IMG/VR virus record: IMGVR_UViG_3300045789_000403
Location: 1-45,757 of that record
DNA length: 45,757 nt
Source of the DNA: a virus
Direction: 5' to 3' (one strand)
Shown: positions 13,528 to 45,757 of the stretch, one piece after another
Position numbering within the stretch: the first letter of the stretch is position 1
How the letters are laid out: each line of letters opens with the position of its first letter
The notes under the pieces: generated by a model
The model's database searches: none
What the model was told of the DNA's origin: nothing
The model's input: only the letters and a program-made list of their open reading frames with translations
Program-made: the position numbers and the translations under genes

Positions 13528-14682
13528 ATGGCGATCAGACCAGAAGACGAATATGGCTCCCGTGCAGCCCCAGCCGATGCGGACTACCCGCACGGTAGCG
13601 CGAAGAACGAAACCACGCCCGGGGCAGACGACGGAACACCCTACACAGCGGACTTCCGCAACGACCTGTGGGGCTTCTTTCAGCGGTTGCTTGAAGAGGC
13701 CGGAATCACGCCCAACGGCGACCCGGACACGGTGATCGACTCGCAGTATTGGGAGGGCCTACAGGCGGAAATCAACAAACAAACCCCTCGCCCCGCGTGG
13801 ACCAGCGCGACGCAAGTGGGTTCGGGGCTCTCTATCCCTGGGACGGCGGGGACGGCCCTTGCAGCCCTGAACGGCACCGACATCGCGTTTATTGATGGCG
13901 GGAACGAGCAACTCGAAACCTACCGGTTCAATTTCGGCACCGGGGTCTGGGTGCAAGTCGGGTCGAGTCTCACCGTGGCCGGCGCCGGGACGCCGGCCCT
14001 CGCGGCCCTGAACGGCACCGACGTGGCGTTTATTGACCTCAGCAACGGACAGCTCCAAACCTACCGATTTAATTTCGGCACCGAGACGTGGGCCCAGACC
14101 GGCGCAAGCCTTGCTATCGCCGGAATTGCCGAGCCAGCCCTTGCGGCTCTGAACGCCACCGACGTGGCGTTTATTGACGGTGGGAACGACGAATTGCGAC
14201 TTTATCGGCTCAACACCGGCACCGGGGTCTGGGCGCAAGTCGGGGCAAGCCTGCCGGTCGCATCTGTGCAGTTGCCAGCCCTCGCGGCCCTGAACGGCAC
14301 CGACGTGGCGTTTATTGACGGTGACAACGACGAATTACGACTTTATCGGTTTGATTTCGGCACCGAGACGTGGTCGCAGGTGGGCGCCAGCCTGTCGGTT
14401 TTCACCGGGGACCGACCAGCCCTTGCGGCGCTGAACGGCACCGACGTAGCGTTCATCGAGGGGACCGACGACGCGCTGGTTGTTTATCGGTTCGATTTCA
14501 GCGCCGAAACGTGGTCGCAGATCGGACCCGCCACGCCCACACCGGTGAACGGTTTCCCGGCCCTGGCCGCCCTGAACGGCACCGACGTGGCGTTTATTGA
14601 CTCAAGCGACGAGGATTTAATCACCTACCGGTTCAATTTCTCAATCGGGACACCGTACAGTGCGGCGGGGGGTGCGTTCTGA
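13528..14682 (+). CDS. Tail fibre with six propeller-like repeats
   Basis: A 384-residue protein. The N-terminal about 95 residues (KNETTPGADDGTPYTADFRNDLWGFFQRLLEEAGITPNGDPDTV) are a conserved phage-fibre attachment module. From about residue 96 there are six repeats of about 47 residues, each ALAALNGTDVAFIDxxN, LxxYRFxFGTxxWxQVG and SLxV. The strand pattern and number suggest a six-bladed beta-propeller acting as receptor-binding tip. The repeats are similar at DNA level, so blade shuffling by recombination is possible. Part of blade five is also found in the early gene at 23356-24189. Confidence 0.8.
   Translation: MAIRPEDEYGSRAAPADADYPHGSAKNETTPGADDGTPYTADFRNDLWGFFQRLLEEAGITPNGDPDTVIDSQYWEGLQAEINKQTPRPAWTSATQVGSGLSIPGTAGTALAALNGTDIAFIDGGNEQLETYRFNFGTGVWVQVGSSLTVAGAGTPALAALNGTDVAFIDLSNGQLQTYRFNFGTETWAQTGASLAIAGIAEPALAALNATDVAFIDGGNDELRLYRLNTGTGVWAQVGASLPVASVQLPALAALNGTDVAFIDGDNDELRLYRFDFGTETWSQVGASLSVFTGDRPALAALNGTDVAFIEGTDDALVVYRFDFSAETWSQIGPATPTPVNGFPALAALNGTDVAFIDSSDEDLITYRFNFSIGTPYSAAGGAF
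13860..14640 (+). repeat. Six ~141-bp in-frame repeats in tail fibre gene
   Basis: The motif CTGAACGGCACCGACGTGG (with small variants) recurs about every 135-141 bases, encoding the ALNGTDVAF strand of each blade. A TGGNNGCAGNTNGG-type segment encodes WxQVG. The variation between copies is partly synonymous, so the repeats are older than the exact 18-bp array in the gpFI-like gene. Confidence 0.88.
14361..14427 (+). repeat. Tail-fibre segment shared with early gene
   Basis: Partner of 23905-23971 (opposite strand, about 91% identical over 67 bases). Here it is a natural part of the repeated propeller blade (GTETWSQVG, then a SLSV strand), so this copy is probably ancestral. Confidence 0.9.
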
Positions 14683-18086: not shown

Positions 18087-20408
18087 TCAGTCCTTTCGTT
18101 TCAGTGGGTTGACCAGTTTCTCGGCCTCGCGAACGTAATAATCGTAATTCACGTTCGACCAGTCGAATTTACTCATATCATTACACTCGGTAACGCGCCA
18201 GCCGGTGCAAATGCCCGTCTCCCGCGTGACGTGTTTGGATTGGTTTTTGGTGTGTATGCGCTCGTCCCAGGGCGTGCCGGCCACATCAACCAGCGCCTCG
18301 GGCGGTTGGGTCATGCTGCGCAGCTCGGCCAATACCCGGTTGTAATCCCGGTCGTTCAAGCCGCTGCGGCGTTTCCAGGTGCCTTCGGGCTCGGTCGGTG
18401 GGGCAATCTTGAGCAGTTGCCCGCCGATGCGCGACACGAAAACCCGGCTCGTTTTCTGCAGGTCGATTTCCACGTCTGGCAACTCGGGCCAGCGCATGAC
18501 AAGCCGGTTCGACCGGGGCACCTTAGCGCGGACCATGAAGTCGTTCGGGTTGTCGTGGTTTTCGATAAACTCCCGCACGTCAACACCCCGGACAAGTGCG
18601 GCCTCGGCTGCTTTTGGTACGACCAGCGACGACCAGTCCTTGTGCCATTGCACCTCCCGGGTGCCCGGGTCTTCATCAATCGTTAGGTGCGCATAGGCGC
18701 CGATGCGTTTCAGCGTGCCGTCTTCATACTCGGCGATGTAGCTGTTCACGTCGCGAATGAACATGCGGGAATATAACGCTTCTTCCAGTTCCAGGCAGGT
18801 TAACCGCTCCCACCAGCGGCAGATCTCGCGGGTGTGATCGAGGTATTCACGCGGGCAAAGGTACGTCACCCCGTCCGTATTGCACTGGATCATTTTCAGA
18901 CCGGGAACCTTGATCAACTGCTCGGCCAACATGCACAGCATCAACTGACCATTCACCGTGATCTTCATCGTGTAAAGCGGGTCGAGGAACACGCTGTACT
19001 CGTTGTTGGACCCACCAAACGACCCGTTCAGAGCCAGTTTAAAAGCACCGTTTTCGGGCAACTTCTTCGGGTAGCTTTTCCGGGTCTGGTACACGCCGTG
19101 GTAAGCGGGGCAGAACTCAGGCCCGAGGTGGGCCGGGTAGATCTGGTTGACGATGGCCAGGTTCGGGTAGTAGCTGGCCACATCCACGTCAACAAGCTGG
19201 AGCCGGTCGTCACTTTCGATCACCTGCGATTCGACCGAGGCGTGAAGGCCACCCGTTCCGAACTTGTATTTCAGCCCGTCGACCACACAGTTTAGCGATT
19301 CGTCTTTGACCGTGTAAAACTCCAACCCGGACAGGTCGAACCCGTCAGGCAGCTTGGACAGCTTTTTGCGTTCGTATTCTTGTGACTTGGTGCCGCGAAC
19401 GGTCAGCGTGTCCGGGTGCATGAAGGCGGCCAGGCGCGGCGAAACCTGGGTGTCGGTAAACACGCCTTTGGTTTGTTTCAGTACCTTGCTGGCCAGTTCG
19501 TCGCGCATCGCTTGGAACTCGGGCCGCTCGAACCGGACATAGGGGAAAATCGCCTCGGCCAGGTCGATGCGGGCGCGTGGAGTTTGTTTCTTGATCTTGC
19601 GGCCCCCACCGGGCGGGCGGACGTAGCAGCTAATGCCGGATTTCTCCAGCTCGGCGACGAGGATCTTCTCGCCCATTTTCACGTCGCTGTCGTTCATCAC
19701 GTTGATGCCGAGCGAAGCGGTCAGTTTCTCGCGTAGCTGGATAGCCGTTTGTGAGCGGGCGTAAAAGCGTGTCGTGGCCTCAACGTCGTGTTCGTTGTAG
19801 GCGTGCAGGATTTCAATGTTCTGGTCGCTTTCCAGCGGTGTACCGGGCGGAAACGGTAGGTCGCCGATGTTATCCATCCCCATGTTGAACTCTAGCACCT
19901 TGAGCGACGTAGACTTGGCCCGGTTATCAAAGTGCCAGATCTTGTACAGGTCGATTTGCTCGACAATCTGGTCGCTCGGCCAGATCAGGTGCCCGAACCG
20001 GTCGTTACTGGTGATGATGGATTGGGCTTTTTCGTAAATCGCCTCGACCGGCATGGTCGGGGCTTGTGCCACGAAGTGAACCACCGGGTAATCGAACCCC
20101 AGGCTGTTATATCCCACCATCCGCCCCCGCTCGGCGGCAAGCGTGTGCATGAACTGCACGAACTGCGGACCTTGGTGCACCCGACGGCTGACCTCGAAAC
20201 GACCCTTACGACCCGTTGCGGGGTGCGTGACCGCACAGGTAAACACGTCCGGGTAGGTTTCTATATCGAACACATAATCGCGGGGGTTCACCTCGGCAGG
20301 GCCGGCCAAGTATGACGGCGCACCGCAGAACGGGCAGACCTGCTTGTCGCCCGGGTAAGGCCGCTCGCACAGTATATCCGGGCATTTCAGCAGGTACGGC
20401 CAGGGCAT
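18087..20408 (-). CDS. Family B-type DNA polymerase
   Basis: A 773-residue protein. Cys9, Cys14, Cys25 and Cys28 suggest an N-terminal zinc site. The 3'-5' exonuclease has DIE at 48-50 (Exo I), NSLGFD at 101-106 (Exo II) and HD at 207-208 (Exo III). The polymerase part has the GGLH element (386-389), motif A DVDVASYYP (407-415), motif B KLALNGSFG (457-465) and motif C NTDG (510-513), where the first Asp of the usual DTD is Asn. The C terminus holds a W-K-R-R element and PWDERIH (714-720), also found in the protein at 23356-24189. It is the likely replicative polymerase. The start overlaps the upstream stop as TAATG. Confidence 0.9.
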   Translation of the reverse strand: MPWPYLLKCPDILCERPYPGDKQVCPFCGAPSYLAGPAEVNPRDYVFDIETYPDVFTCAVTHPATGRKGRFEVSRRVHQGPQFVQFMHTLAAERGRMVGYNSLGFDYPVVHFVAQAPTMPVEAIYEKAQSIITSNDRFGHLIWPSDQIVEQIDLYKIWHFDNRAKSTSLKVLEFNMGMDNIGDLPFPPGTPLESDQNIEILHAYNEHDVEATTRFYARSQTAIQLREKLTASLGINVMNDSDVKMGEKILVAELEKSGISCYVRPPGGGRKIKKQTPRARIDLAEAIFPYVRFERPEFQAMRDELASKVLKQTKGVFTDTQVSPRLAAFMHPDTLTVRGTKSQEYERKKLSKLPDGFDLSGLEFYTVKDESLNCVVDGLKYKFGTGGLHASVESQVIESDDRLQLVDVDVASYYPNLAIVNQIYPAHLGPEFCPAYHGVYQTRKSYPKKLPENGAFKLALNGSFGGSNNEYSVFLDPLYTMKITVNGQLMLCMLAEQLIKVPGLKMIQCNTDGVTYLCPREYLDHTREICRWWERLTCLELEEALYSRMFIRDVNSYIAEYEDGTLKRIGAYAHLTIDEDPGTREVQWHKDWSSLVVPKAAEAALVRGVDVREFIENHDNPNDFMVRAKVPRSNRLVMRWPELPDVEIDLQKTSRVFVSRIGGQLLKIAPPTEPEGTWKRRSGLNDRDYNRVLAELRSMTQPPEALVDVAGTPWDERIHTKNQSKHVTRETGICTGWRVTECNDMSKFDWSNVNYDYYVREAEKLVNPLKRKD

Positions 20409-21253
20409 TACTCGTCACCCTGGTCGGTGAAGCGGGCACCGGCGCTCCACATACTCACCGCGCTGGAGCGGGCAACGTGCTTGCTCATTGCCGGATTGCC
20501 CTTAAACATCACTTCAACAGCCCGGTCGATGAACTGGTCACGGTCGGTTACGCGGGCGAAACCAGTGATTTCGTTGGCTCGGAATACTGTCATGCCGCCA
20601 CCGTGACCAGATATATCAACAAGCCAAATTTGGTCACCGTAAACACCCGCCAGCGTGCCGGTACGCCCCGCGTGTACATCGGTTTCCACCCTCACCCGCT
20701 GACCAATATCAGCCGACACACCGCACGCTTGAAAACTCATTGTACGGGCTTTTCCAATGCTGTTCAGGTCGCGGATGTTTCGGGCGTCGCGCCAGTGATA
20801 CCGATAGATCGAATCCGATCCACCAACCTCAGCGAGAACCCAGCCGGTCGGCTTATTCGCGGGGGCGGGCTGTGCCATCCACTCCCAACCACTCGGAACA
20901 TGGTGTGGCGCACCACCCTGGCCAACGGGCCAATCGTCCAGCATCTCAACACACCACGCGAGTGCCTCGTTACGGGTCATCGCTGGGCGTGTGGTCGGCT
21001 CGGGTGGGTGGTTTCGCCGGTTCATAACGTCACCCTGGGTGATCGGTCCGAACTTGTGCGACGGGTCGTAGAGCGCCCAGGTCCACGCTCGCGGCGCATC
21101 GCTGGGTAAGGGTGGCTCTTTACCCCAGGCCCAACCAGCCGGAGCATTACCGGGTGGGCTAGAGTGCTGGGTGGGCCAACCGTCAAGCCGGTCAACACAC
21201 CACGCGAGTGCTTCGTTACGGGTCATCGGTGACCCCATCGTTGCAGTTGCCAT
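20408..21253 (-). CDS. Unknown protein with duplicated N-terminal motif
   Basis: A 281-residue protein, not recognised. The block MTRNEALAWCVxxLDxWP occurs twice (about residues 10-27 and 92-109), each followed by a Pro/Gly/Trp-rich stretch (PAGWAWG and PSGWEWM). Residues 160-230 contain a small beta region (GQRVRVETDVHAGRTGTLAGVYGDQIWLVDIS) that looks like a KOW/SH3-type fold. It lies between the SSB and the polymerase, so a replication accessory role is plausible but unproven. GAGG precedes ATG 21253. Confidence 0.7.
   Translation of the reverse strand: MATATMGSPMTRNEALAWCVDRLDGWPTQHSSPPGNAPAGWAWGKEPPLPSDAPRAWTWALYDPSHKFGPITQGDVMNRRNHPPEPTTRPAMTRNEALAWCVEMLDDWPVGQGGAPHHVPSGWEWMAQPAPANKPTGWVLAEVGGSDSIYRYHWRDARNIRDLNSIGKARTMSFQACGVSADIGQRVRVETDVHAGRTGTLAGVYGDQIWLVDISGHGGGMTVFRANEITGFARVTDRDQFIDRAVEVMFKGNPAMSKHVARSSAVSMWSAGARFTDQGDE
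20947..20983 (-). repeat. 37-bp direct repeat, copy A
   Basis: 36 of 37 bases match the copy at 21192-21228. Both encode the start of the MTRNEALAWCV motif inside the duplicated-motif gene, so the two N-terminal units arose by a fairly recent in-gene duplication. Confidence 0.9.
21192..21228 (-). repeat. 37-bp direct repeat, copy B
   Basis: Partner of the copy at 20947-20983, with one C/T difference. It encodes the first MTRNEALAWCV unit of the same protein. Confidence 0.9.
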
Positions 21254-21300: not shown

Positions 21301-22194
21301 TTATGCGCGGGGCAGCGCGTTGATCTGATCGTCGGACCACTTGGACGCCCGCAACTGCTCGCGGGTGTAAATCTGTCCGTTCAGATTGAACTGCTCGGGT
21401 GCTGCAGGCGCCTGCGGTGCCGGAGCAGCCGGGGCGGGTGCAGCGGGCGGGGCACCTGCGTCGCCCGGGCCGTTCAGGAAGTCCGTGGCGGGCTGTACCG
21501 GGGCAGCCGGAGCGGCAGGCGCCTGCGGTGCTGCTGGCTGTTGGGCCGGTGCACCGGGGACAGGCATCGCACCGGACGGGGCCGCACCGGCCGCACCACC
21601 GAACGCGGCGCCGGGGTCCGGGGCGTCGCCGAGGATCGGTTCACCCTGGAAATCATGGCTGAACATGGTCGGGTTGATGTACAAGCCGGGGGACTGGCTC
21701 GGGCCGTTACCCTTCACACTCACAGCCAAACGACCGTAATCGCCGCGCTTAATCACGCTGGTGTCGATGATCTGGTCGGTCATCGGGTCATATTTACCGT
21801 TCGGGTAGCAGCGAACCTGCAGTTCAGTCGTGGCCTTAACAATCCAATGGCCCGGGAAACCTTCACGATCGCAGTTGCGTTTGCCGTTACGGTTGGGGAT
21901 CTGGCTATCACCGTCTTCCACCTTGAAATGAAAATCGTTGCGCTGCCATTCACCGTTGGGCCAGTCCTGCTGGGCACGCTGGTGGATCTGCTGACCCCAT
22001 GCGGTCTGGTTCCACTGCTGTTCGCCTGTTTTCTCAATGGCGACGGCCACGAAAATACGGCTGCGCGGCTGACCCATCTGGTCCAGCTTCACCTGACCAG
22101 TGTTATCGTCGGTGACCGGCTGGCGTTCCATCGGGTGACCCTGAACGATGCGACCCGGGGGTAGGGTCAGGTCGAGAAATTTCGATTCACTCAT
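21301..22194 (-). CDS. Enc34-type ssDNA-binding protein
   Basis: A 297-residue protein from ATG 22194. Residues about 1-185 match the phage Enc34 ssDNA-binding family (DUF2815): LDLTLPPGRIVQGHPMERQPV, RSRIFVAVAIEKTGEQQWNQT, LQVRCYPNGKYDP, GRLAVSVKGNG and GLYINPTMF. Residues about 195-280 are a long Ala/Pro/Gly-rich linker, and the end (REQLRASKWSDDQINALPRA) may be a partner-binding tip. It coats single-stranded DNA in replication and recombination. It overlaps the nuclease stop by 8 bases. Confidence 0.88.
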   Translation of the reverse strand: MSESKFLDLTLPPGRIVQGHPMERQPVTDDNTGQVKLDQMGQPRSRIFVAVAIEKTGEQQWNQTAWGQQIHQRAQQDWPNGEWQRNDFHFKVEDGDSQIPNRNGKRNCDREGFPGHWIVKATTELQVRCYPNGKYDPMTDQIIDTSVIKRGDYGRLAVSVKGNGPSQSPGLYINPTMFSHDFQGEPILGDAPDPGAAFGGAAGAAPSGAMPVPGAPAQQPAAPQAPAAPAAPVQPATDFLNGPGDAGAPPAAPAPAAPAPQAPAAPEQFNLNGQIYTREQLRASKWSDDQINALPRA

Positions 22195-23353
22195 TGCTAA
22201 ATGCCTCTTTTGCTTGTTGCCCGTCATCGGGTACGAGTTTAAAACCTGTTTGACCTTGCGTAGAGTATTGCTTAATTAACGCCGGGTCAATACCTAAATT
22301 ACGCGCCTGGTTCGGCGTGATTGCCTGGGGTGGCTTGGCCAGATCCTTGCCAAGCATCTGACCCAACATGATCACCTCGGTATCAGGTCGCGCCCACGTC
22401 TGGCGACCATACGTCGGTTCAGTGGTCCAGCCCGGTACGACCTCACCGCGTTTGATGGCCGCGACCATTTGTGTGGTGAAACCCTCCCGCAGCGACTTGA
22501 TGTGTTCATACGCCCGGTCGAGATACGACTTATATGCACCCATAGCCGCCGGTAACGGTTGCATCGGTAACGACACACTGGTGGCCTCGAACATGGACAC
22601 GCCCGCACGAATCGCCGGTTCGCAAGCGTGACGGCCAGGGCAGTGCTTACAGTGACTGCCGGTCCGTGCGGTGGCACCTGGTCCGGTCGCTTCGCCTGCG
22701 TTGTTTGCCATCTGGTTGATGTAGCTGCGCAGATCCGACGCCAGCACGACCCACTCACGGATCGGGCCCTTGCGGTGCGGCGCTCGGGGTTGGACGACAC
22801 GCAGCACGACGTGGGTGTACTGGTCGGCGTGACCGTTGATATCGTGCAGGCCCAACAAACCGGCGACGTAATCCATCATCTGCCAGTTCTCGAACGCCTC
22901 GACCACATCGAACCCGAACTTGTAGTCCCAAACGTACAGAAACCCATGCTGCTTGGCCCACAACGAGCAATCAGGTGTGCCGCCGTTCTGGTCAATGTGG
23001 ACCCTGGGGATGTCAACGTACTGCTCAACCCGCAAACCCTCACCACCAAACACACCATGGTCGCGCATCACGTTGATCACGTTGTCGGCGTAGAGTTTCG
23101 CACCGACGTACATTTCGTGGGTGAACGGCACACCGTTAGACGCGACGCGCCCCTCGAACGCTTTCCAGTCGGGGAATTGCGCCCGCGTCCCGGCGTCGAT
23201 CAGCTCGGCGCCGATTTCGTGGGACGCCTCGCCCTCCTCGGCCTCGGGTGATGACGTGTCCGGGAACGCCGCGGCGACCTGCGGGTACATGGTACACCCG
23301 CCCGGCTTGCCCCAAATGTGCGCCGCTGACGGCGCGAGGAACTTGTGACCCAT
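22187..23353 (-). CDS. RecB/Cas4-like nuclease (DUF2800 type)
   Basis: A 388-residue protein; ATG 23353 has GGGAG at suitable distance, while the in-frame TTG six bases upstream does not. PD-(D/E)XK elements: HEIGAELI near residue 45, GTPD (Asp about 128), and VWDYKFG (Asp about 143, Lys about 145). A Cys cluster (CKHCPGRHAC, near 235) probably carries an iron-sulfur site with other Cys. DUF2800 proteins stand next to the Enc34-type SSB in many phages, as here, and are thought to be exonucleases for recombination or end processing. Confidence 0.85.
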   Translation of the reverse strand: MGHKFLAPSAAHIWGKPGGCTMYPQVAAAFPDTSSPEAEEGEASHEIGAELIDAGTRAQFPDWKAFEGRVASNGVPFTHEMYVGAKLYADNVINVMRDHGVFGGEGLRVEQYVDIPRVHIDQNGGTPDCSLWAKQHGFLYVWDYKFGFDVVEAFENWQMMDYVAGLLGLHDINGHADQYTHVVLRVVQPRAPHRKGPIREWVVLASDLRSYINQMANNAGEATGPGATARTGSHCKHCPGRHACEPAIRAGVSMFEATSVSLPMQPLPAAMGAYKSYLDRAYEHIKSLREGFTTQMVAAIKRGEVVPGWTTEPTYGRQTWARPDTEVIMLGQMLGKDLAKPPQAITPNQARNLGIDPALIKQYSTQGQTGFKLVPDDGQQAKEAFSNE

Positions 23354-23355
23354 GA

Positions 23356-24189
23356 TCAACTCCCGAACAGTGTCGCGGCAACTTGCGGGATCAGATCGGG
23401 GCGGGTGGCCAGTACGGCGGTGGAGTCGATGCCGTGCGCCTTACACGCCTCGGTCGCTTGGCTGTGGTCCATGCCACGCTGCATGAACTCGGCCATGAAT
23501 TCCTGCCAGCCCCACCCGGTGAAGTCAGTTGTGGTTGGTGCCGGAGCGACTGGGGCAGGCGGGGCGGGTGCAGCCGGCTGTTCGGTCGTCGGTGCTGGAG
23601 CGGGTGCAGCCGGTGCCTCGGGCTGACCAGTGGCGGCGGGTGGTTGAGGCGCTGCGGGTTGCTCGGCCGGAATGGCCATGACCTGACGCAGCTCGGCTTC
23701 AACCCGCGCAATTTCCTCGTCGCTGACGCCGCGTTTTTTCTTCCACTGGTCGGTTTTCGCCAGTTTCTTACGGCTACCCGCGTGGATGCGCTCGTCCCAG
23801 GGCAAGCCGTCCGCGTCCACATCAACGCCGGCCGGGGCAGGTGTTTCGGCGGTAGGTTCCGGTGCGGGTGGCGCCGGGGGCTCAGGTGCGTCGGTGCCGG
23901 TTGGCGCAGGGGCTGGCCGGTCCCCGGTGAGAACCGACAGGTCGGTGCCCACCTGCGACCACGTCTCGGTGACAAACACGTCGGTGGGGTTGGGCTCGCC
24001 GCCGGTGGTTTCCGGTTCCGGTGTGGGTGGGGTCGGTACGACCGGCTCGGGTGTTTCGGCCTTGACAGGGTCGGGAGTGACCATCAGCGCCTCAGAATCA
24101 AGCCCCTCGGCAAGGGTGTTTAAGTAATGTGCCGCACAACGCAGATCACCTGCAATGCGGGGAATTGTGAGCGAAATAGAGTCGTTCAT
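23356..24189 (-). CDS. Pro/Ala-rich early protein with PWDERIH mini-domain
   Basis: A 277-residue modular protein, first gene of the early minus operon. It has a helical N terminus (1-35), a Pro/Glu/Thr linker holding a TETWSQVG..LSV.TGDRPA segment copied from the tail-fibre repeat, PWDERIH with W-K-K-K-R-G and an acidic helix (about 125-165), a Pro/Ala linker, and a C-terminal helical domain (FTGWGWQEFMAEFMQRGMDHSQATEACKAHG). The PWDERIH module occurs in phage recombination and polymerase proteins. No recombinase fold is seen. It may be a scaffold linking nuclease, SSB and polymerase (inference). Confidence 0.75.
   Translation of the reverse strand: MNDSISLTIPRIAGDLRCAAHYLNTLAEGLDSEALMVTPDPVKAETPEPVVPTPPTPEPETTGGEPNPTDVFVTETWSQVGTDLSVLTGDRPAPAPTGTDAPEPPAPPAPEPTAETPAPAGVDVDADGLPWDERIHAGSRKKLAKTDQWKKKRGVSDEEIARVEAELRQVMAIPAEQPAAPQPPAATGQPEAPAAPAPAPTTEQPAAPAPPAPVAPAPTTTDFTGWGWQEFMAEFMQRGMDHSQATEACKAHGIDSTAVLATRPDLIPQVAATLFGS
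23905..23971 (-). repeat. Segment homologous to tail-fibre blade five
   Basis: Read on the minus strand, these 67 bases match 14361-14427 of the tail fibre gene at 61 positions (about 91%) with no gap, and both are read in the same frame. It lies in the Pro-rich linker of the early gene, where the surrounding sequence has no such similarity. Confidence 0.9.
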
Positions 24190-24272: not shown

Positions 24273-26054
24273 ATGCGAAGACCGCCACCACCACCCCCAG
24301 TCCTGTCCGGGGTTGCCGCTGCAGTAAAGCGGGCCGGCGTCAAGTTGCGCTGGTATCAGCGCCAAATTAAGCAAGACATTTACAACGCTTGGGGTGGTAA
24401 GCGCAGCAACGTGCTTGCCGTGCTACCTACCGGTGCGGGTAAAACTGTCGTCTTCTCCGACATACTCGCCGAACACAACGGGGCGAGCTGTGCGATTGCC
24501 CACCGGCAGGAGCTTGTCAGTCAGATTTCCGTAGCACTAGCCCGTAACGGGGTGAAACACCGTATCATCGGGCCGAAAAACGTCATCCGCCAAGTGGTCA
24601 ACCTGCACATGATGGAAGTCGGCGCGTCGTTCTATGACCCGGCCGCCCCTGTGGGTGTGGCCGGTGTTGACACGTTGATTCGCCGCGGTCGGGAGCTGTC
24701 CGCCTGGTTGAACCGGGTCACGCTGTGGGTGCAGGACGAAGCGCACCATGTGCTTGAGTCGAACAAGTGGGGGCAAGCGGCTGAAATGTTCCCCCACGCT
24801 AAGGGCCTGGGCGTGACCGCCACACCGTGCAGGGCCGACCGTAAAGGCCTTGGCCGCCATGCTGACGGGCTGTTTGATGTGCTGGTTGAAGGCCCGAACA
24901 TGCGCGACCTGATCGACGAGGGGTTTTTGACCGACTACCGTGTGTTGGCACCTGATCCGGCGTTCGTGATGAACGACGAAACCGATGTAGGTTCGACCGG
25001 GGATTACAAGCGCGACGCGGTGGTGAAGAAGTTCCGCGCCAGCAAAAACAAGGTTATCGGCGACGTGGTGTCGCACTACCTGAAACACGCGGTTGGGAAA
25101 CTCGGCATTACATTCGTGCCGGACGTGGAGGACGCCACCGACACCGCAGCAGCGTTTAACGCGGTGGGTGTGCCTGCCGAGGTGGTGAGCGCCAAAACAC
25201 CCGACACCGAGCGGGCCGAGATCCTGCGCCGGTTCAAGCGGCGCGAGTTGCTACAGTTGGTGAACGTGGATCTGTTCGGCGAGGGGTTCGACCTGCCGGC
25301 CATCGAGGTGGTTAGTATGGCCAGACCCACCGCATCGTTCAGCCTGTTCGTTCAGCAGTTCGGGCGGGCGCTGCGCTTGATGGTCGACCCGGCGTTAATG
25401 AGCCAGTGGGATGATTTCACGCCGGAACAGCGCCGCGCTCACATCGCTGCCAGCGACAAGCCCCGCGCCTTGATTCTGGATCACGTCGGCAACGTCCAGC
25501 GCCACAAGCTGCCCGACCGTCGCATGACCTGGACGCTGGACCGGGGCGACAAGCGCCAACGGGCAGCGAACGACGACGCCATCCCGGTGAAGGCCTGCCC
25601 GGAATGTACGTTCGTCTATGAAGCGGTCAAGCCGTGCTGCCCGGAGTGCGGTTACAAGCCGCTACCGATGGCACGCAGCCGGCCGGAGTTTGTCGACGGT
25701 GACCTGATCGAGTTGACCCCCGAGGCACTGGCCGCACTGCGCGAGGAAGTCGACCAGATGGACAAACCAGCGCACCAGATCGTGGCCGAGAAACACATTC
25801 CGCTCGCCGGTCAACGCCGGTTCGCCCGGATACACGCCGAGGATCAGGAGGCGCAGCGGGTGTTGCGCGAGTCAATCGCTTGGTGGGGTGGTTACCAGCG
25901 GGCCATGGGTCGGGGTGACTCGGAGAGCTACAAGCGGTTTTATTTCATGTTTGGCGTGGACGTTATGACCGCACAGACACTCAAGCGGGCCGAGGCCGAG
26001 GCGCTGACCGCCCGCATCAATGACCATTTGGGAGACGTTCGGGATGCCGGATAA
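24273..26054 (+). CDS. SF2 DEAH-box helicase
   Basis: A 593-residue protein with all core motifs: WYQ near 28, Walker A LPTGAGKT (51-58), DEAH (155-158), VTATP (181-185), motif V GEGFDLP (336-342) and motif VI QQFGRALR (361-368). A four-Cys zinc ribbon (442, 445, 456, 459) follows, then a helical C terminus. The layout resembles phage branch-migration/recombination helicases (UvsW-like, RecG-side role) or SSL2-type proteins. It opens the rightward early operon, with AGGGGA before ATG. It probably processes forks or D-loops with the nuclease and SSB from the other arm. Confidence 0.9.
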   Translation: MRRPPPPPPVLSGVAAAVKRAGVKLRWYQRQIKQDIYNAWGGKRSNVLAVLPTGAGKTVVFSDILAEHNGASCAIAHRQELVSQISVALARNGVKHRIIGPKNVIRQVVNLHMMEVGASFYDPAAPVGVAGVDTLIRRGRELSAWLNRVTLWVQDEAHHVLESNKWGQAAEMFPHAKGLGVTATPCRADRKGLGRHADGLFDVLVEGPNMRDLIDEGFLTDYRVLAPDPAFVMNDETDVGSTGDYKRDAVVKKFRASKNKVIGDVVSHYLKHAVGKLGITFVPDVEDATDTAAAFNAVGVPAEVVSAKTPDTERAEILRRFKRRELLQLVNVDLFGEGFDLPAIEVVSMARPTASFSLFVQQFGRALRLMVDPALMSQWDDFTPEQRRAHIAASDKPRALILDHVGNVQRHKLPDRRMTWTLDRGDKRQRAANDDAIPVKACPECTFVYEAVKPCCPECGYKPLPMARSRPEFVDGDLIELTPEALAALREEVDQMDKPAHQIVAEKHIPLAGQRRFARIHAEDQEAQRVLRESIAWWGGYQRAMGRGDSESYKRFYFMFGVDVMTAQTLKRAEAEALTARINDHLGDVRDAG

Positions 26055-30862: not shown

Positions 30863-30949
30863 TTATTAGTTGTTGACCTTGGGGTTAGTTGACCCTAATA
30901 TGAACACATCAACAACGCAGACAGGACGAACCGACCATGAAGACTTTCA
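30863..30949 (+). repeat. 87-bp promoter/leader repeat, copy 1
   Basis: 83 of 87 bases match 33729-33815. The repeat spans the promoter, the whole untranslated leader with AGGA ribosome site, and the first 13 coding bases (both proteins start MKTF). It heads the first small-gene cassette. Confidence 0.95.
30873..30901 (+). promoter_or_regulatory. Sigma70-like promoter of cassette 1
   Basis: TTGACC (30873-30878), a 17-base spacer and TAATAT (30896-30901), close to consensus. A second TTGACC lies in the spacer. RNA would start near 30908, giving a leader of about 30 bases. Confidence 0.82.
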
Positions 30950-33728: not shown

Positions 33729-33815
33729 TTATTACTTGTTGACCTCGGGGTTAGTTGGTCCTAATATGAACACATCAACAACGCAGACAGGACGAACCGA
33801 CCATGAAGACTTTCA
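33729..33815 (+). repeat. 87-bp promoter/leader repeat, copy 2
   Basis: Second copy of 30863-30949 with four differences, none in the -35/-10 hexamers or ribosome site. It begins right after the terminator and heads cassette 2. Confidence 0.95.
33739..33767 (+). promoter_or_regulatory. Sigma70-like promoter of cassette 2
   Basis: TTGACC (33739-33744), a 17-base spacer and TAATAT (33762-33767), identical in hexamers and spacing to the promoters at 27617 and 30873. Confidence 0.82.
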
Positions 33816-45472: not shown

Positions 45473-45757
45473 ATGCCAAGCAACAAGGAAATCATCAACG
45501 ATATTCAAGCGTTGGCCGCCGAATTGGGTGAGCCGACTCCTAACACCGACGGTGCGAATAATGAAAAGCTGCTGAACATCGCCCGCGACTTGCGCCAGCG
45601 GTTGAAAGCGGCACCCAGCGCCGAGGAAGCCAAAGCAGCCGAGGAAGCCAAAGCAGCCGAGGAAGCCAAAGCAGCCGAGGAAGCCAAAGCAGCCGAGGAA
45701 GCCAAAGCAGCCGAGGAAGCCAAAGCAGCCGAGGAAGCCAAAGCAGCCGAGGAAGCC
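45473..45757 (+). CDS. gpFI-like head/packaging protein, N-terminal part
   Basis: ATG 45473 with AGGAA upstream. A 49-residue helical domain (NKEIINDIQALAAELG, NNEKLLNIARDLRQRLKA) is followed by the Ala-Glu-Glu-Ala-Lys-Ala array, open to the last base. The frame continues at base 1 and ends at 300; the complete protein is at least about 148 residues when the two array ends are overlapped. The N-terminal helices resemble those of lambda gpFI in spacing and position. Confidence 0.75.
   Translation, partial: MPSNKEIINDIQALAAELGEPTPNTDGANNEKLLNIARDLRQRLKAAPSAEEAKAAEEAKAAEEAKAAEEAKAAEEAKAAEEAKAAEEAKAAEEA
45620..45757 (+). repeat. 18-bp tandem repeat array, right contig end
   Basis: Identical over all 138 bases to positions 1-138. 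It has exactly the same partial last unit, as expected if the assembler closed a circle on the array or could not span it. Confidence 0.97.

Follow-up and report, generated by a model that had tools for sequence, protein, structure and literature searches.

The window considered here, a whole stretch of 45,757 nucleotides of phage DNA, carries a piece of its tail-fibre gene inside an early gene on the opposite strand. Probably, 67 to 86 nt of one fibre repeat were copied illegitimately into a disordered linker that tolerates such additions and have drifted since, and comparable events recur in the family of the early protein, the WDERIH family (phrog_11133). To judge by the sequences, the segment is an intragenomic templated insertion, copied within a single genome whose donor is still intact.

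In an ungapped blastn comparison, the minus strand of 23905-23971 and the plus strand of 14361-14427 agree at 61 of 67 bases (91%). With one 3-nt gap, the alignment extends to a GTD motif in the early gene (23889-23971, minus strand, against 14361-14446; 74 of 86 bases, 86%), and a search for inverted repeats finds the same pair as 72-nt arms at 14356-14427 and 23905-23976 (89%). The match has an E value of 1.2e-21 in a comparison of the whole window with itself, and at about 1e-21 chance is ruled out. Both copies begin in codon phase 2 (offsets 833 and 218) and thus encode matching peptides, TETWSQVGASLSVFTGDRPALA in the fibre and TETWSQVGTDLSVLTGDRPAPA at about residues 74-95 of the early protein. 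The initial annotation had described an inverted 67-base match read in the same frame, which both kinds of search confirm, and its view that this is not an assembly duplicate is supported. The segment matches one particular copy of the fibre repeat; the other copies match over about 19 nt at most, apart from one alignment at 69%. Searching the rest of the genome with the segment returns the fibre as the only other occurrence. Similarity continues beyond the core to position 23889, and the flanking NPTDV and GTD resemble the fibre repeat (each with p ~0.02 against random windows).

The donor gene lies at 13528-14682 on the plus strand. Its conserved N-terminus matches the profile phrog_26525 (1.4e-16), and its repeats match Kelch_3 (7.7e-16). 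The six repeat copies that had been counted in the fibre are borne out by a repeat search, which places them at 13852-14666 (plus strand) with 141 nt each. A single-sequence AlphaFold model of the protein folds as a propeller with a pLDDT of 69 overall and higher values in the repeats, and its best structural matches are six-bladed propellers, the designed Pizza6 proteins. By its N-terminal profile and its repeated Kelch blades, the product is thus predicted to be a tail fibre with a six-bladed, Kelch-like propeller. The donated stretch (residues 278-307; 14361-14446, plus strand) corresponds in the model to one strand and the variable loop of one blade, a unit that is not expected to fold alone. 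The TETWSQVG portion is part of the fibre repeat consensus, and the loop SVFTGDRPA is unique to the donor copy among the repeats.

The recipient is a protein of 277 amino acids encoded at 23359-24189 on the minus strand. A profile match to phrog_11133 (2.8e-19, residues 118-274, covering the WDERIH domain and the C-terminal domain) and an alignment with 27 relatives place it, on sequence grounds, in that family. Three islands are common to the relatives: an N-terminal helix, the PWDERIH domain and the C-terminal helices. In the recipient the ordered islands span residues ~13-34, 121-172 and 228-275, and they are joined by linkers rich in proline and alanine that cannot be aligned across relatives. 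In a model built with 28 sequences, pLDDT exceeds 90 for the WDERIH island and the C-terminal one but falls to about 46-60 over most of the linkers, which are predicted to be disordered; a structure search with this model gave no match. The fibre-derived insert sits in linker 1 and is itself predicted to be disordered, with residues 82-91 below a pLDDT of 50. A proline-rich linker as the recipient site, as first proposed, is therefore supported. Like other members of phrog_11133, the protein contains the PWDERIH domain, which is conserved, and helices at its C-terminus, but the inserted segment is foreign to the family and carried by this member alone.

The neighbours of the recipient gene belong to DNA metabolism. 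It opens an operon that also encodes a DUF2800 exonuclease (phrog_69; 22187-23359, minus strand), the next gene downstream, and a Gp2.5-like protein for single-stranded DNA binding and annealing (phrog_7011; 21301-22227, minus strand), both assigned by profile. The DNA polymerase (phrog_1252, by profile; 18087-20408, minus strand) belongs to the same leftward block, and a divergent helicase gene (phrog_16; 24273-26054, plus strand) faces the recipient. The gene upstream of the WDERIH gene is divergent in 55 of 70 genomes, the window included. As a separate observation, the C-terminus of the polymerase carries a WDERIHT motif: near 18153-18293 it reads W-K-R..L-x-D..Y..V..E and then WDERIHTKN-SK, an arrangement present in seven other polymerases. 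In the WDERIH protein these two halves occur in reversed order, as if by circular permutation.

The direction of the copy appears, from the sequences, to be from the fibre to the early gene. At four of the differing sites in the 67 nt (25, 28, 29 and 62), the base most frequent among the other repeats is retained in the fibre and replaced in the early copy. Position 54, in the variable loop, polarises the opposite way, and the sixth difference is uninformative. Relatives of the early protein with the segment in phages without the fibre repeat, the refuting case named by the initial annotation, were sought; no relative in IMG/VR carries it. L031, for example, encodes a repeat protein partly similar to the fibre, yet the WDERIH gene of that phage is without the insert. 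A peptide search of the named-phage collection with the segment reached only E ~8, which is no match, an exact scan for its DNA returned nothing, and a search of viral contigs with the fibre protein found no relatives. The best relatives from a search with the polymerase reach about 50% identity, which leaves no near relative whose empty site at the DNA level would fix the junctions of the insert. The four sites that are ancestral in the fibre, together with the absence of the segment from relatives, identify the fibre as the source, and they support the earlier proposal of a copy into the early gene followed by divergence.

The divergence amounts to six differences (G/A, A/G, G/A, T/C, A/G and T/C), which change five codons and replace four amino acids. 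Five are non-synonymous and one is synonymous, on 47.7 and 18.3 sites, respectively. This comparison of the two kinds of change, which had been suggested as a check, gives no sign of purifying selection on the insert, although the number of differences is small.

The initial annotation had named the capture as one without a described precedent between these two functional classes. The window copy itself stands, but it is not isolated, since there are four further independent captures in linkers of the same family. A first survey compared 70 WDERIH genes, with the WDERIH domain masked, to their own genomes (85 genomes, 3.05 Mb), and a second added 155 WDERIH open frames from new loci, for a total of about 225 genes. 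The alignment used for searching (A1) contained one made-up row, a WDARIHS variant that served to widen the patterns and was used in queries only. In the first survey, three WDERIH queries (the window, L019 and L040) had complex hits of at least 50 bits in their own genomes, compared to 0.06 expected from non-self genomes. The total over both surveys is five independent captures, with sizes of about 45-85 nt. The linker of L019 holds 58 nt of helicase DNA (96.6%) read in antisense. In L040 the captured text is in frame and comes from a DUF3383/tail-sheath gene, with 48 nt at 85% and an alignment that can be carried over 79 nt. In L258, 83 nt of a phrog_1829 primase-helicase gene (88%) are read in frame, and in L412 and L350 the linkers contain the C-terminal module of the phage's own SSB, also in frame (71 nt at 87% and 76 nt at 78%). 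In L019 (Helicase_C), L040 (DUF3383), L258 and L412, the shared text stands at a conserved place in the donor's own family, which gives the direction of the copy. Of the five inserts, four keep the donor frame (p = 0.003, taking a probability of 1/6 for each). The four in-frame inserts have 5, 4, 1 and 2 open readings out of 6, with 1 for L258 and 2 for L412, so the avoidance of stops accounts for part, perhaps much, of this bias and not clearly for all of it.

WDERIH genes make up 176 kb of 4.64 Mb (3.8%) yet hold five of the seven accepted captures, and with the window excluded the count is four of six (p ~3e-5); both figures are approximate, since we classified the captures manually and retrieved loci by their WDERIH genes. 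The enrichment is thus a strong hint and not a measured rate. The likeliest explanation is that it reflects retention in tolerant linkers rather than more frequent insertion. One of the two captures elsewhere (G032) is a DNA polymerase piece of 58 identical bases (L237 4706-4763 and L077 12744-12801), in frame in the tail of a small DUF3850 protein, right after its ordered domain. It is the sole capture found in an early gene other than WDERIH. The other (G005) is a 42-nt piece common to two tail genes, in antisense. The automatic filter drops L040, whose aligned protein is longer than the DNA match, as well as L412/L350, G032 and G005, and these were accepted by hand.

Several kinds of self-match were put aside as captures. 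These include homing-type paralogues in L064, fibre paralogues in G014 and G031, a match upstream of the start codon in L356 and a start-region repeat in L355. Low-complexity proline and alanine text common to the WDERIH and SSB linkers was put aside in L093, L081, L087 and L036. In these four, the linkers of the two genes, which are about 2 kb apart and rich in proline, alanine and glutamine, share 35-97 nt; the sharing exceeds the expectation from other genomes and may reflect exchange or a common codon bias. Promoter and leader repeats were also put aside. For example, an 87-nt direct repeat of the window (30863-30949 and 33729-33815, 95%) covers a stretch resembling -35 and -10 elements together with the opening codons (ATGAAGACTTTCA) of two small genes, and represents a duplicated promoter/leader; other phages of this group, among them L005, L011, L041 and L068, have three to five near-identical promoter-like repeats of 45-100 nt scattered genome-wide. 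Repeats at contig ends were put aside as well. In the window, positions 1-138 and 45620-45757 are identical arrays of one 18-nt repeat (GCCGAGGAAGCCAAAGCA); what looks like terminal redundancy may instead reflect an assembly that broke off within a tandemly repeated part of a single gene. Two other repeats were seen. A 59-nt repeat at 20927-20985 and 21173-21231 (88%) is an internal duplication of the unit MTRNEALAWCV..LD.WP within the gene at 20408-21253, and in L184 (G021) the C-terminal peptide QLTESEYKDFMAR, at 2009-2048, 2278-2317 and 2828-2867, is common to three neighbouring small genes.

The process behind the captures would begin, while the phage replicates or recombines its DNA, with template switching or with a stray single strand that anneals, and one piece of the fibre repeat would be copied. 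The phage's own exonuclease and annealing proteins may take part. The copied 67 to 86 nt would land in frame in the reverse-oriented WDERIH gene, in its first disordered linker; as the linker would tolerate any filler free of stops, the insert would be kept and then drift to its present six differences in 67 nt. The same process, acting repeatedly, could leave fragments of other phage genes in the linkers of the family. A variant compatible with this course, although on the improbable side, is that the linker is what remains of a larger capture, of at least one 141-nt unit, that later suffered an internal deletion. The NPTDV and GTD that bracket the insert recall the NGTDV of the repeat, but these flank matches cover 11-15 nt of GC-rich text and their significance is weak. 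A copy in the reverse direction, with the early-gene linker giving text to one fibre repeat and so creating its distinct loop, would fit the uniqueness of SVFTGDRPA and the agreement of the early copy with the other repeats at position 54. It is nevertheless very unlikely, given that TETWSQVG belongs to the repeat consensus, that the fibre has the ancestral base at four other sites and that the text is absent from all relatives of the early protein. A repeat copy in a variable fibre loop with a second site elsewhere also recalls the template and variable pair of a diversity-generating retroelement, but such an element or another dedicated cassette mechanism is scarcely credible here: the record has no match to PF00078 and hence no reverse transcriptase, the differences are transitions in both directions and not adenine-specific, and the second copy is coding and lies in another protein family.

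The role of the inserted peptide also has to be weighed. It could have been captured for a function and be under selection, serving perhaps as a docking tag or as a mimic of a phage protein, and the initial annotation had raised a tag for protein interaction. The frame kept by four of five inserts and the SSB module kept by two diverged phages (L412 and L350) are in its favour, but we regard functional capture as unlikely. The predominance of non-synonymous change and the predicted disorder of the segment give a tag no support, the donor piece is a blade strand and loop and not a self-folding unit, the L019 insert is antisense, and the donors (fibre, sheath, helicase, primase and SSB) are unrelated. 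A broader possibility, which we hold to be doubtful though less so, is that WDERIH linkers are a recurrent sink that assembles new disordered sequence from the phage's own genes, with some inserts, such as the SSB module, kept in frame for use. Illegitimate copying into a tolerant linker, followed by drift, remains the preferred account.

Some of the elements of this account are already known. Pieces of phage proteins occur across different functional classes at the level of domains (Smug et al. 2023, PMC10684548), where domain families were compared between phages by profile; here, donor and linker belong to a single genome, and what entered the disordered linker is a piece of 20-30 residues that is not a domain. 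The terms "same genome," "intragenomic" and "illegitimate" are absent from the text of that paper. In coronaviruses, short stretches of the virus's own genome are reported to be inserted into coding regions and to change proteins (Patarca and Haseltine 2023, PMC9957694). As described there, those rearrangements concern RNA viruses and one donor, the 5' UTR, whereas the present ones concern dsDNA phages and many coding donors. Through their ability to join sequences of short or diverged homology, Rad52-like annealing recombinases of phages drive mosaicism (De Paepe et al. 2014, PMC3945230); the Gp2.5-like proteins are another recombinase class, for which that paper suggests, but does not show, similar behaviour. 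The phages studied here likewise encode an annealing protein, of the Gp2.5-like class, but the exchange in those systems is driven by homology between phages, whereas the donor and recipient genes here have no detectable prior homology. Searches of the open literature returned no account of the WDERIH motif, nor of in-genome capture in the linkers of phage proteins. Cross-class sharing of domain fragments and intragenomic insertion in coronaviruses are thus known, and, by those searches, the recurrence of capture in WDERIH linkers is new.

One practical consequence is a caution, since short similarities between phage genes of different classes can be scraps and not a shared function. The captures also provide a concrete and datable route by which linkers gain sequence, in which scraps of the phage's own genome, including virion genes, enter early genes. 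Because donor and insert can still be aligned, the WDERIH family can serve as a natural system in which to assay short illegitimate insertion in phages, with the rate, size (~45-85 nt), frame bias and fate of the inserts as its readouts.
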